Of a stretch of DNA of 38,267 nt, positions 3,874 through 24,906 are shown piece after piece. The number at the start of each line of letters is the position of its first letter. Position 1 is the first letter of the stretch. A program made the position numbers and the translations under genes. Source of the DNA: Flavobacteriales bacterium (lineage in GTDB: Bacteria; Bacteroidota; Bacteroidia; Flavobacteriales; Flavobacteriaceae). Under the pieces are notes generated by a model. That model searched no databases. It saw only the letters and a list, made by a program, of their open reading frames with translations, and was not told the origin of the DNA. The DNA is taken from NCBI GenBank assembly GCA_024641135.1, contig JAHEDS010000016.1, forward strand, positions 1 through 38,267, given 5' to 3'.

Positions 3874-3919
3874 ACCTTTAATAATTATTTTAATCTTAAT
3901 AATTACTTTCGCATAGAAA

Positions 3920-4095
3920 ATGGTTTCAACCAATTTATTATTGTTTGAATTAAAAGGGAATCTGGTTTAAATCCAGAGCTGTTCCCGCAACTGTAATCTT
4001 TGTTCCTTTAATGGAATGCTTAGTGCAAAACTTCAAGTCACTGGAAATATTTTCTGGGAAGACCAGCATTAAGACGAGAGTCAGGAGACCTGCCT
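3920..4095 (+). promoter_or_regulatory. Cobalamin (B12) riboswitch aptamer
   Basis: The region holds the conserved blocks of the cobalamin riboswitch in order: AAAAGGGAATCTGG then AATCCAGAGCTGTTCCCGCA, then ACTGTAA, TCACTGG, TGGGAAGACC, and the B12 box GTCAGGAGACCTGCC ending at about 4094. GGGAA pairs with TTCCC as in known members. It precedes the TonB-dependent receptor on the same strand, where high cobalamin would normally switch expression off. Outer limits are approximate. Confidence 0.93.
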
Positions 4096-4115
4096 TTTTT
4101 AAAAATATATAAGTC

Positions 4116-4136: not shown

Positions 4137-4178
4137 ATGTATGTTAATTCATACTATTCTCGAATAATTAGTAATTTA

Positions 4179-6116
4179 ATGAACAACAAAAAAAAGGTAA
4201 TTAGTTTATTATTTTTTGGGGTTTCAACTCTTGGCATTAGCCAGCAAATAGTTGATTCTACACTGATACAACAATTAGATGAGATTGTTATAACCGATTC
4301 TAAATTTAAATTAAAACGAGAGAATTCCGGTAAAGTTATTACCAAAATTTCTCAAGCCGAACTGCAGAATCAGCAAGGAAAATCTATTGCAGAAATTATT
4401 AATACTACAGCTGGATTAGAAATTAATGGCACAAAAAGTAATGCAGGCCAAAACCTGAATTATTATGTTCGAGGAGGTCGTAACCGGCAGGTTTTAATAC
4501 TTATTGATGGTGTGGCATTAACCGATGCTTCACAAATAGCAAATGATTATGATTTACGTTTACTAAACACAGAACAGGTTGAAAGTATTGAAATTTTAAA
4601 AGGGGCCGCAAGTACACTTTATGGTTCTGGTGCTGCGACTGCAGTTATAAATATTAAGTTGAAAGAGGCTTCAAATAAACCCATTTCTGCGAGTTTTAGA
4701 AGTATTTTAGGAAGCAATAAATCACAATCAGACAATACATATAGTATTAATGATTTTAGAAATTCCGTGTCCATCAATGGAACTTTAAATAAGTTTAATT
4801 ATTTAGCAAGTTTTGGTAATCAATTCACAGATGGATTATCGTCCTTATCTAGAGGTGTTGAGCCAGATAAAGATGTGTTTAATTCCATTAATGGGAAATT
4901 TAAAATAGGATATAATTTCTCTAATAACTTTAAAATTTCGGCTTATGGTAGCTTTGACGATTTTAAAGCTGAATTTGATGATGTTTATTCTGGACCAGAA
5001 ATTGAGGATGCGGCTGTAACAGACCAAAGTCGTTTCGGAATTTCTTCAGAGTTTAACTATAGTAATGGCAGCATAACTTTAAATGCAGTTTACAATACTA
5101 TAAACCGTGATATAAGGTCAAGCTATCCCGCTAATTACAAAGCGCAAAGTTTTGTTTCAGATGTTTTCAACCGGTATCAATTTAATAATAAAATATATAC
5201 AGTCTTAGGGGTTAATGCTCAGAAAAACAATATGGAAAGCCTTATAATTCCTTATGGGAGTTCATATTTAGAGCAAAGTATAAATCCTGATATTGCGAAT
5301 TTTGTGATTTTGGATCCATATGCTAATATGGTTTACGTATCTGATTTTGGATTGAATATGAATTTTGGTACCCGCTTGAATAATCATTCAGAATATGGGT
5401 CGCATTTGGTATATAGTATAAATCCATCGTTTAAAAAAAATGTTGCATTTGGCTATTTAAAGGGATTGGCGAGTTTTAGTACGGCTTATATTACTCCATC
5501 TTTATATCAGTTATTTGAACCAACTTATGGGAATTCAGATTTACAACCTGAGGAAAATACTACTTTAGAATTTGGAATAGAGGTAAATGCTAAAAATAAA
5601 GCCACTGTTAGTCTGGTTTATTTTAACAGAAAGGAATCTAATTTTATTGATTTTGTCGATTTAGGTAGCTATGTATATAAGTATCAAAATATTGATAATA
5701 CTTTTAATGCTAGCGGGTTAGAATTAAATATAAATTTTAAATTTTCAAATCAACTGTCAGTTCAAAGCAATGCTACTTTTACTCATGTTGAGGAGGATTT
5801 AAGTTTAAGGATTCCAAAAGTTAAAATCAATGCTTCGTTATCCTATCAATTATCTAAAACGACGTTTACGAATCTATCTTATCAGTTCAATGATAGTAGG
5901 CATGATGCCTTTTTTAACGATACAACATATAATACTGAACAAGTAATATTAAATAAGTATGCGCTATTCAATTTTTATATTAGTCATAAATTAAAAAATA
6001 AGAAAATCTTACTTTTTGCCAATGTGACCAATATTTTGAATGAAGATTATGAAGAGTTATATGGGTATTCAACCAAAGGGCGAAATATAAATTTGGGGTT
6101 GAATTTCGATTTTTAA
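4179..6116 (+). CDS. btuB: TonB-dependent outer-membrane receptor, BtuB-like (vitamin B12)
   Basis: An outer-membrane beta-barrel receptor of about 645 residues. The frame is open from an ATG at 4137, but the ATG at 4179 gives a standard signal peptide (MNNKKKVISLLFFGVS, cleavage near GISQQ), so I prefer it. Next comes a TonB-box-like DEIVITDSKF, then the plug domain (GKSIAEIINTTAGLEINGT, NYYVRGGRNRQVLILIDGV, VESIEILKGAASTLYGSGA), then the barrel with LYQLFEPTYGNSDLQPE and a C-terminal strand ending in aromatic Phe (NLGLNFDF). The cobalamin riboswitch directly upstream points to cobalamin or a related corrinoid. The matching ABC importer is encoded divergently. A bidirectional terminator follows the stop codon. 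Confidence 0.92.
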   Translation: MNNKKKVISLLFFGVSTLGISQQIVDSTLIQQLDEIVITDSKFKLKRENSGKVITKISQAELQNQQGKSIAEIINTTAGLEINGTKSNAGQNLNYYVRGGRNRQVLILIDGVALTDASQIANDYDLRLLNTEQVESIEILKGAASTLYGSGAATAVINIKLKEASNKPISASFRSILGSNKSQSDNTYSINDFRNSVSINGTLNKFNYLASFGNQFTDGLSSLSRGVEPDKDVFNSINGKFKIGYNFSNNFKISAYGSFDDFKAEFDDVYSGPEIEDAAVTDQSRFGISSEFNYSNGSITLNAVYNTINRDIRSSYPANYKAQSFVSDVFNRYQFNNKIYTVLGVNAQKNNMESLIIPYGSSYLEQSINPDIANFVILDPYANMVYVSDFGLNMNFGTRLNNHSEYGSHLVYSINPSFKKNVAFGYLKGLASFSTAYITPSLYQLFEPTYGNSDLQPEENTTLEFGIEVNAKNKATVSLVYFNRKESNFIDFVDLGSYVYKYQNIDNTFNASGLELNINFKFSNQLSVQSNATFTHVEEDLSLRIPKVKINASLSYQLSKTTFTNLSYQFNDSRHDAFFNDTTYNTEQVILNKYALFNFYISHKLKNKKILLFANVTNILNEDYEELYGYSTKGRNINLGLNFDF

Positions 6117-22493: not shown

Positions 22494-24335
22494 CTATCTT
22501 CTTGAGCGTCTTGGTCTGTCAAATCCAGATGATGACGATTTAGAGTCCGATCCACCAGAACGTCTTGGTTTTGAAGCGTTCTCCGATCGTCTTCTTTCGC
22601 TTCTGTTTCCAGAACCTGCGCTAGTACTACGATTTTCGCTTCTTGAACCACTACGTCTGTCGCTTCTTCCTTTCTCTCCACCTTTTCTATCATCACGTCT
22701 AGGACCACGACTTCTGCTTCTGCTTCTGTCGCCCCCTCTGTTTTCAGAGACTTCAACATTTACAAATCTTCCTTCGTGTTTAAAATCGGTAAAAAAGGCT
22801 AATACTTTTTCTTGTAATTCTTTTTCTGTATTGAAGAAAGAAAAACTATCCTTAACTTCTACTTTAAAAACATCATCTCTACCAAGTTCTAAAACATCTT
22901 TTAAGAAGTCTTTTAAACTCATCCAGTCATATCCATCTTTGCTACCAACATTTATAAAATAGCGGGTAGAGTTAGATTCTTTTGAAAACTCTCGTTCATC
23001 AGAAAAAGAGGCTTCCACATTAAGATTTTTTGTTTTTTTATAGTAATTGTAGAAACGTGTAAATTCAACAGAAAAGAATTTTTTAATCAATTCGTCCTTA
23101 CTAGTATCTGCAAATAAGGAATTAATGCTCGTTAAATATTTATCAATTTCATGGTTGATTTCTGTATTATGAATTTTATTTGCAAGTGACATTAACTGTA
23201 CTTCACAAATTTCCATACCATCAGGAATTTCTTTTTTATCAAATTGTTTTTTGATAATGCGTTCGATACTTTTTATTTTTCGCACTTCACTTTTTGATAC
23301 AAGCACCATTGAAACACCAGTTTTACCTGCACGACCTGTACGACCACTACGATGGGTATAGGTTTCAATTTCATCGGGTAGTTGGTAATTAATTACGTGT
23401 GTGATGTCATCAACATCAATACCACGAGCGGCTACATCAGTAGCTACCAACATTTCAATTTGTTTATTTCTAAAAGATTTCATTACCAAATCACGCTGAT
23501 TCTGACTTAAATCGCCATGTAAAGCAGCAGCACTATAACCATCTTCAATAAGTTGTTCTGCTACTTTTTGTGTGTCACGCTTAGTTCTGCAAAAAACCAC
23601 TGAAAATATATCCGGATTGGCATCAGATAATCTTTTTAAAGCATCATAACGATCTCTTGAATTAATTAAATAATACTCGTGTGATACTTGATTGGTACTT
23701 TCATTTTTGTTTCCAACAGTAATTTCTGTTGGATTACGCATGAATTTTTTTGCGATTGTAGAAACCTCTTGAGGCATGGTAGCCGAAAATAACCAAGTAT
23801 TTTTCTCTGCTGGTGTATAAGATAAGATATCAGTAATATCTTCATAAAATCCCATATTAAGCATTTCATCAGCTTCATCTAATACAGCGTATTCAATTTT
23901 TGAGATGTCAACCAGTTTTCGGTTAATCATATCTTTCATTCTTCCAGGTGTAGCAACAATAATTTGAGCTCCTTTTTTTACATCTCTAGCTTGGTCTGTT
24001 ATACTAGACCCACCATAAATTGCCACCACATTAAGTCCTTTACAGTATTTACCATAAAGTTTCATTTCATTGGTAATTTGCAAACAAAGTTCGCGTGTAG
24101 GAGAAAGGATTAAGCCTTGGGTGGTTCTGCTATCAATATTTATTTTTTGAAGCATCGGGAAACCAAAAGCAGCAGTTTTACCTGTTCCTGTTTGAGCAAG
24201 AGCAACCAAATCAGTTTCTTTGTCAACTAAAATTGGAATGGCTTTTTGTTGTACATCACTAGGTGTTTCAAATCCTAAATCTGTAATAGCGTGTAATAGG
24301 TCCTCATTAAGACCCAATTCTTGGAATGTGTTCAT
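22494..24335 (-). CDS. deaD: DEAD-box ATP-dependent RNA helicase with an Arg/Ser-rich tail
   Basis: A 613-residue RNA helicase of the DeaD/CsdA type, acting on structured RNA and ribosome assembly, often needed in the cold. All motifs are present: Q-motif (FETPSDVQQKAIP), Walker A AQTGTGKT (47-54), PTRELCLQ, TPGR, DEAD (153-156), SAT (184-186), VVFCRTK, ATDVAARGIDV and HRSGRTGRAGKTG. A DbpA-like RNA-binding domain follows (about 455-535: RYFINVGSKDGYDWMSLKDF). The last 75 or so residues are extremely rich in Arg, Ser and Gly with many RS/RR/RG pairs, likely a disordered RNA-binding tail. The leader before the ATG can fold into competing hairpins, suggesting autoregulation or cold control. A terminator follows. 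Confidence 0.95.
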   Translation of the reverse strand: MNTFQELGLNEDLLHAITDLGFETPSDVQQKAIPILVDKETDLVALAQTGTGKTAAFGFPMLQKINIDSRTTQGLILSPTRELCLQITNEMKLYGKYCKGLNVVAIYGGSSITDQARDVKKGAQIIVATPGRMKDMINRKLVDISKIEYAVLDEADEMLNMGFYEDITDILSYTPAEKNTWLFSATMPQEVSTIAKKFMRNPTEITVGNKNESTNQVSHEYYLINSRDRYDALKRLSDANPDIFSVVFCRTKRDTQKVAEQLIEDGYSAAALHGDLSQNQRDLVMKSFRNKQIEMLVATDVAARGIDVDDITHVINYQLPDEIETYTHRSGRTGRAGKTGVSMVLVSKSEVRKIKSIERIIKKQFDKKEIPDGMEICEVQLMSLANKIHNTEINHEIDKYLTSINSLFADTSKDELIKKFFSVEFTRFYNYYKKTKNLNVEASFSDEREFSKESNSTRYFINVGSKDGYDWMSLKDFLKDVLELGRDDVFKVEVKDSFSFFNTEKELQEKVLAFFTDFKHEGRFVNVEVSENRGGDRSRSRSRGPRRDDRKGGEKGRSDRRSGSRSENRSTSAGSGNRSERRRSENASKPRRSGGSDSKSSSSGFDRPRRSRR

Positions 24336-24379
24336 TCTTATGTAAGTATTCGATGTTGTTATGTGGTGTTACATAAGAA
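24335..24379 (-). promoter_or_regulatory. Leader inverted repeat with two competing hairpins ending at the helicase ATG
   Basis: On the minus strand, segment A TTCTTATGTAA (24379-24369) can pair with segment C TTACATAAGAA (24345-24335), a perfect 11-bp stem whose last base is the A of the start codon. Segment B ACATAA (24364-24359) can instead pair with TTATGT of segment A, with a 6-base loop. The two folds exclude each other, so one hides the start region and the other frees it. Confidence 0.55.
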
Positions 24380-24462
24380 GCGAATCGACATACTTAACTT
24401 AACCTTCTAGTAACACATCCTCACTCTGAGGAATACAAACCCATATTCTGGATTTCAAGCGG

Positions 24463-24470
24463 CAAAGATA
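24463..24470 (-). promoter_or_regulatory. Predicted -7 promoter box of the helicase gene (TATCTTTG)
   Basis: TATCTTTG on the minus strand is an exact TAnnTTTG match 128 bases before the helicase ATG. It implies an unusually long leader of about 120 bases, compared with 10-40 at other boxes in this window. Confidence 0.5.
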
Positions 24471-24516
24471 GTCTTTTATTTGTGATTAACTAATGTTAAT
24501 ATAAATCTTTGATTTT

Positions 24517-24590
24517 GGGCGTTTTAACACGCTTTTCGCTATATCTTTTTCTCGTGCCTCAAAAAAGGATGCCGCTGCAATCGTTAACGC
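24517..24590 (-). ncRNA. Candidate structured RNA or conserved flavobacterial intergenic element
   Basis: The minus strand reads GATTGCAGCGGCATCC, a CTTTTT...AAAAAG stem around GAGGCACGAG, then GATATAGCGAAAAGCG and a trailing GTTTTAACG segment. The pattern of GCAGCGG, a U/A stem and ATAGCGAAAAGCG recalls an element I have seen in flavobacterial intergenic regions, perhaps the Rfam flavo-1 RNA; I cannot confirm that here. It lies upstream of the helicase promoter on the same strand. Confidence 0.4.
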
Positions 24591-24906
24591 AATGATTTAA
24601 ATATTCAAATTTTCACCTTATAAGGCTGCATTGTTGTAGTTAATCGATTAAATGTTAGAAATATTATTTTTATTGATTACTTTAAATTAGTTCAAATTAA
24701 AATTTAGTACTTCCCTAAAAATAGCATTTTTATAATTTGAACAGTATCAAAAATTGAACGATTAAAGTAAGCCTCTTTTTTACTATCTATTTGACTTTAA
24801 TGGAATTATAGTACATTTTCTAAATTTAATAAGTGTAAATATTCAAAGGTTAATTATTACTGTTTGAATATTATTATAATTTTTAACCAATTAAAACCAA
24901 CCAATT
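24591..24906. other. AT-rich intergenic region before the beta-propeller lipoprotein gene
   Basis: About 315 bases of AT-rich sequence with no ORF of note and no clear hairpin. It probably holds the promoter of the plus-strand lipoprotein gene, but I see no exact TAnnTTTG box close to the start. Confidence 0.6.

Follow-up and report, generated by a model that had tools for sequence, protein, structure and literature searches.

A conserved pseudoknot-bearing leader before a DEAD-box RNA helicase gene of Flavobacteriaceae, a putative cis-regulatory RNA

Several bacterial genes for RNA-binding or RNA-remodelling proteins carry leaders that feed back on their own expression. The Escherichia coli helicase gene csdA/deaD has a long 5' untranslated region and is autoregulated, and to our knowledge its leader holds no pseudoknot of the kind described here. 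In the autogenous leaders of the ribosomal proteins S15 and S4, a pseudoknot at the ribosome site controls translation initiation on the mRNA of the RNA-binding protein itself. The nearest functional parallels that we met are the RNA helicase CrhR of Synechocystis, whose expression is summarized as depending on the helicase itself, in part at the post-transcriptional level (PMC3485376), and RNase J of Helicobacter, summarized as subject to feedback through a helicase-containing degradosome (PMC5874925). For Flavobacterium johnsoniae, translation initiation is outlined as proceeding without reliance on Shine-Dalgarno pairing and as being tuned by mRNA structure (PMC6847099, PMC9976891).

The locus considered here lies in a window of 38,267 nt (contig JAHEDS010000016.1, assembly GCA_024641135.1, a Flavobacteriales bacterium of the family Flavobacteriaceae), which is the whole stretch of DNA analysed; the helicase gene and all elements of its leader are on the reverse strand. 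Like csdA/deaD, the locus joins a long leader to a helicase gene of related type, but it belongs to another phylum, the comparison being with the E. coli leader as generally described. With the S15 and S4 leaders it has in common a pseudoknot at the ribosome site. Those leaders are rRNA mimics, whereas the present locus matched the 3' part of its genome's own 23S rRNA no better than shuffled sequences did, with a local score of 15 that was reached in 58 of 200 shuffles. As with CrhR, a DEAD-box-type helicase is tied to its own expression, here by proposal; CrhR differs in being cyanobacterial and in the temperature-dependent half-life of its transcript and protein, and the abstract of that work names no such leader structure (PMC3485376).

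The gene occupies 22,494-24,335 (613 codons) and encodes a DEAD-box RNA helicase with DEAD, Helicase_C and DbpA-type RNA-binding domains, the last at residues 458-528. In a comparison with NCBIfam, CshA was the top model, all of the best 25 matches listed being below their cut-offs. Upstream of the start codon (24335-24333) stands the promoter-like box TATCTTTG (24470-24463), which we take to be of the TAnnTTTG promoter type and which is kept in many relatives. The end of the box at 24463 lies 127 nt before the ATG and places the leader at about 120 nt, with the transcript presumably starting near 24457, in agreement with the preliminary description, which had put it at about 120 bases. Such a box was found within 250 nt upstream of 8 of the 28 ORFs checked, the helicase among them; for the seven others it lies at 142 nt in one case and at 44 nt or less in six. 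These few genes are a small basis for the preliminary view that the leader is much longer than others in the window. Just upstream of the helicase box, at a distance of 50 bp and on the same strand, is a Flavo-1 RNA (RF01705, 47.2 bits, 24595-24521), of which the genome has eight copies above the cut-off, besides one weaker match. Flavo-1 is likewise a flavobacterial RNA family, but it is a separate, multi-copy element that does not overlap the leader. Elsewhere in the window, a cobalamin riboswitch (RF00174, 103 bits) occupies 3904-4111 of the forward strand, directly 5' of the ORF at 4137-6116.

The leader is strongly conserved and is shared by many relatives. By blastn, it was found in six of seven genomes of the genus sample, including the window's own; G006, from the window's genus, is the sole genome of that sample with no match, and its fragmented assembly may explain this. 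In the family sample, 78 of 199 genomes gave matches, although in six of these the match was limited to 22-31 nt at the promoter end. The 80 named loci come from Yeosuana, Algibacter, Tamlana, Winogradskyella, Bizionia, Hyunsoonleella and others. The close alignment (A1) comprises 98 leaders, 97 of them distinct; L063 was left out because its P1 region is replaced. In L225, apparently the same organism as L063, the leader seems to be interrupted and partly duplicated, with two model matches (94-201 and 252-374) and two blast pieces 162 bp apart.

Orthologs of the helicase are present in 183 of the 199 family genomes, and upstream DNA was taken by region for 120 helicase places in these 183. 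With covariance models, every one of the 37 sources L199-L235 gave the leader, as did nine of nine additional close sources and 61 of 83 mostly divergent helicase-upstream stretches (E<0.1). Of the 22 unmatched sources among these 83, a promoter-like box stands only 5-22 nt upstream of the ATG in 15 (eight of these distances were obtained by subtracting the coding part), and in these 15 the leader is absent or replaced. The existence of such leader-less orthologs means that the leader is dispensable.

In whole-genome searches, 9 of 21 genomes matched, all of them Flavobacteriaceae and each with one copy, and the copy adjoins the helicase start wherever its location was compared. No match was obtained in one member of the genus, three other members of the family and all eight genomes of other families. 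With the close model, matches were found in 8 of 296 genomes of the order, seven of them Flavobacteriaceae, and in 1 of 198 genomes of the class, namely the window's own; these wide searches scored 12-18 candidates per genome and missed divergent copies, G007 giving no match there and a match in the 21-genome search. Additionally, none of 25 helicase loci from the order sample was matched by the broader model; 15 of these loci belong to other families and 10 to leader-less Flavobacteriaceae. A candidate from another family of the order, L129 (G275:C19:4131-4241), scored 28.2 bits with the close model R1 (E 0.0062) and 19.9 bits with the broader one (E 0.83), and was rejected. Among the genomes searched, convincing copies of the leader were thus found in Flavobacteriaceae only. 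Four sources from another family of the order (L144, L146, L147 and L148) have different helicase leaders, in which by eye a long stem seemingly closes at the AUG.

Comparison among relatives shows that the conserved leader is composed of a predicted hairpin, P1, and a predicted H-type pseudoknot of two helices, P2 and P3, which ends just before the AUG. P1 (UCCUC/GAGGA, loop AGAGU) pairs 24432-24428 with 24422-24418. P2 consists of P2a, in which GUGUUAC (24416-24410) pairs with GUAACAC (24372-24366), and P2b, in which GAAG (24407-24404) pairs with CUUC (24380-24377). The 5' strand of P3, UAAGUAU-g-UCGAU (24396-24384), lies within the P2 loop and pairs downstream with AUCGA-AUACUUA (24354-24343), which ends 7 nt before the AUG, so that the two helices cross; both have covariation support. 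Further 5', an optional hairpin, P0 (24455-24449 with 24443-24437), was recognized by eye and seems to be compensated in several relatives and missing in others. A short AUG or GUG frame after P1 was considered as an upstream ORF and rejected, as visual inspection showed it in the close set only and not in the divergent leaders viewed.

In A1, 7 of the 23 pairs of P1, P3 and P4 (a hairpin described below) are double-changed, and their covariation score was reached in none of 500 shuffles, although, of the 12 P3 pairs, one is not formed in 34 of 97 rows and another in 24. P2 is paired in 99.0% of cells there, and its single double-changed pair out of 11 was equalled by 235 of 500 shuffles; P2 varies so little in the close set that this set alone is insufficient proof of it. 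In the wider alignment A2 (72 rows, two of them, L225:94-201 and L175, spurious), which was fitted to P1 and P2, 15 of the 16 pairs of these helices are double-changed, including all five of P1; double-changed cells number 102, where shuffles give 16.6. The two spurious rows were left out of the set of 33 representatives used below.

Further evidence was obtained by comparing the pairing of each leader's own strands with that of strands from other leaders. The set consisted of 42 representatives less than 75% identical, drawn from the first 61 of 104 rows of alignment A4 (E<0.1), and this thinning to 75% identity was the sole treatment of kinship. For P3, to which the divergent alignments were not fitted, own strands gave a mean of -9.30 kcal/mol and foreign ones -5.67 kcal/mol (z -10.7, 0 of 50,000 permutations). 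P2a gave z -7.7 (0 of 50,000 permutations, 42 representatives), and a control pairing of segment A with the region before the ATG gave z -0.2 in the same 42. Divergent leaders carry P2a variants such as GUACU/AGUAC, GCGUU/AACGC and AAGUU/AACUU. In 50 of the 61 leaders the P3 duplex is predicted to reach at least -6 kcal/mol in strength, and there it ends no more than 14 nt from the AUG; in the other 11 it is weaker. A free pseudoknot descriptor applied to single sequences was dropped in favour of these tests because it separated real from shuffled sequences poorly (mean 41.5 against 34.6, sd 4.0, for 49 sequences that included leader-less ones).

Besides the pseudoknot, the leader can form a hairpin, P4 (UUAUGU/ACAUAA, 24376-24371 with 24364-24359), which is the shorter stem with 24359-24364 noted in the preliminary description; it is present and covaries in the close group. 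In the Yeosuana-like close group, own P4 strands pair better than foreign ones (z -8.0 with 63 representatives, z -5.4 with 29 distinct arms). Across all subgroups z is -0.8 (42 representatives), and support for P4 is accordingly confined to the Yeosuana-like group. P4 overlaps P2a by two bases, the first two of the P2a 3' strand, and the full P2a and P4 cannot coexist because these bases are shared. At one shared-base site, the P2a partner, the shared base and the P4 partner read A-U-A in 77 of 98 rows. The shared base is C in four rows (three Hyunsoonleella and one Jejuia), and in all four both partners are G. This concerted change from A-U-A to G-C-G leads us to conclude that P2a and P4 both appear to be under selection, never both complete, and in the Yeosuana-like subgroup these mutually exclusive helices both show covariation. 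A shortened P2a, in which GUGUU pairs with AACAC of the P4 loop, could possibly coexist with P4. The proposal of mutually exclusive hairpins had therefore identified an overlapping pair that includes the short hairpin, but it had placed the rival strand at the start codon, whereas it is found at 24416-24410, in P2a.

An overlap of this type resembles an expression switch, which brings to mind a ligand-binding riboswitch with the pseudoknot as putative aptamer for a small molecule or ion. The pseudoknot is compact, and some unpaired letters look conserved by eye (AGNGU in the P1 loop, GUCG before P2b). The leader is, however, single-copy in the whole-genome searches and stands before one non-metabolic gene where this was checked, and it has no Rfam match, so that we regard a riboswitch as distinctly improbable.

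In the preliminary proposal, a hairpin at the start codon (24379-24369 with 24345-24335) closes the ATG and competes with the short hairpin. This 11-bp Watson-Crick stem, including the A of the ATG (24335), is perfect exactly as described, and it is not easily obtained by chance: of 2000 dinucleotide-shuffled leaders, none had an 11-bp stem that ended on this A, and three had one anywhere. Moreover, fragments of 45 and 80 nt taken in isolation are predicted to fold into it. Once upstream leader is added, in three fragments folded at 10, 25, 37 and 45 °C, the stem is no longer predicted. Among the 98 aligned leaders, the full stem is private to the window and a very close relative, L009; its covariation score was equalled by 68 of 500 shuffles, and the strand next to the ATG that it needs varies in sequence and length among relatives. 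Own strands in pairings of this type were no better than foreign ones (z +0.4 with 42 representatives, +2.5 in a set of 33). By the rule that the preliminary description set itself, conservation of the segments, the start-codon hairpin is refuted as a conserved feature, and it is extremely improbable as the controlling structure; a leader switch as such is not refuted by this.

A different strand of the start region might be sequestered instead. The strand AACACAUUCC (24332-24323), over codons 2-5, is complementary to GGAUGUGUU (24420-24412). In the close set 98.5% of cells are paired, yet there is no covariation, and own against foreign strands gave z -1.7 (33 representatives) and -0.9 (42 representatives); as an established helix this sequestor was rejected. 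It is kept as possible for three reasons: codons 3 and 4 are unusually fixed, a 121-nt fragment is predicted to fold with it, and it tends to accompany P4. Codon 3 is ACA in 79 and codon 4 UUC in 72 of the 80 named relatives, compared with same-gene synonymous backgrounds of 39% and 34% (kinship uncorrected). Its complementarity tracks P4 strength weakly (Spearman 0.33, n=93, kinship uncorrected).

Temperature could be imagined as the signal, since a role in the cold is common among such helicases and the leader holds numerous weak A-U pairs. An RNA thermometer for the cold would open or close the start at a set temperature. Two predicted changes fall in with it: in the two longest fragments the predicted fold passes from P3 and P4 to P2 between 37 and 45 °C, which is taken to be above the growth range, and a fold with P3 only exchanges rank with the 11-bp stem at about 15 °C, the difference being some tenths of a kcal/mol. 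The best three of the nested folds, however, at -15.6 (P1 and P2), -17.5 (P1, P3 and P4) and -17.9 kcal/mol (sequestor, P3 and P4) at 37 °C, drop nearly in parallel and hold their ranking from 4 to 42 °C, the energy of the pseudoknot not being included. Furthermore, the conservation of sequence and pseudoknot would exceed what a thermometer needs. These models make temperature alone unlikely as the signal, and we consider a cold thermometer very unlikely.

Beyond the AUG, comparison of coding sequences indicates that a predicted hairpin in codons 7-13, P5 (24316-24309 with 24304-24297), is under selection. In 81 genes, codons 7-16 have a mean MFE of -7.35 kcal/mol, compared with -2.72 kcal/mol for synonymous recodings (mean z -2.57), and codons 1-6 folded alone are unstructured (mean MFE -0.01 kcal/mol). 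The next strongest of ten other stretches in the 81 close genes is codons 87-96, with a mean z of -1.44. Own P5 strands pair better than foreign ones with z -8.8 in a set of 116 distinct sequences that takes in divergent and leader-less ones. The glycine codon in P5 and the downstream strand tend to change together, GGU standing with ACC in 33 of 54 cases and GGG with CCC in 14 of 22; GGA (UCC in just 7 of 25) and GGC (GCC in 2 of 15) are exceptions. In ten loci of the order, of which seven have short leaders, codons 11-20 show more excess structure (z -1.74) than codons 7-16 (z -1.25), so that P5 is not strictly tied to the pseudoknot. Short-leader orthologs of one genus (L133, L134 and L136-L139) have a predicted coding hairpin from about codon 11. 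P5 may thus be a separate feature, as genes without the leader also have a slightly shifted coding hairpin.

Taken by comparison, the AUG sits between two predicted structures, P3, which ends 5-11 nt upstream in the 98 close rows, and P5, at about +20 to +39. The narrow spacing of P3 and the presence of P5 beyond the AUG indicate the ribosome site. They also speak against an mRNA stability element, in which the pseudoknot would shield or expose the 5' end to nucleases with no direct control of initiation. Such a role would suit helices that start near the inferred 5' end; we hold it to be improbable. An attenuator with an intrinsic terminator finds little in the alignment, as UUUU directly follows P3 in 2 of 98 rows.

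No described family accounts for the leader in the collections searched. With the 4227 Rfam models of release 15, none matched it at the gathering threshold in the window, nor up to E 5 in the region 24280-24700, and 20 divergent and close leader stretches gave, up to E 1, one sub-threshold snoRNA match outside the leader. No description of this leader was found in open-licence literature on helicase leaders, autoregulation and structured RNAs in Flavobacteria. We read the leader as a new cis-regulatory RNA outside the known Rfam families.

On the comparative evidence, the helicase leader probably acts in cis on translation initiation. Initiation in this phylum is taken to be independent of Shine-Dalgarno pairing, so that local structure would govern how the 30S subunit gains access, and with P3 and P5 abutting the ribosome site, the leader would set this access. 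The balance between the pseudoknot of P2 and P3 and a fold that contains P4 would then set initiation; if P4 won, GGAUGUGUU would be free to pair with AACACAUUCC over codons 2-5. A role of the helicase in this control is possible and is suggested by the identity of the gene itself. Through its RNA-binding domain and its unwinding activity, the helicase might shift the balance and so adjust its own synthesis, a step that we find plausible yet hesitate to favour, and the sign of such feedback, at a guess, would be negative. The most elaborate version, in which the upstream pseudoknot and the coding hairpin mark the start and hold the 30S subunit while the helicase switches a three-way contest among P2a, P4 and the pairing over codons 2-5, is rather unlikely as a whole.

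The regulation of translation in bacteria that initiate without Shine-Dalgarno pairing is poorly known. The leader described here is a compact, strongly covarying RNA attached to a single gene. It offers a testable candidate switch at the ribosome site, cultured strains exist in genera that carry it, and the leader-less orthologs provide natural controls. If the helicase acts on the leader, this family would present a clear case of an RNA-remodelling enzyme that is sensed by the folding of its own mRNA.
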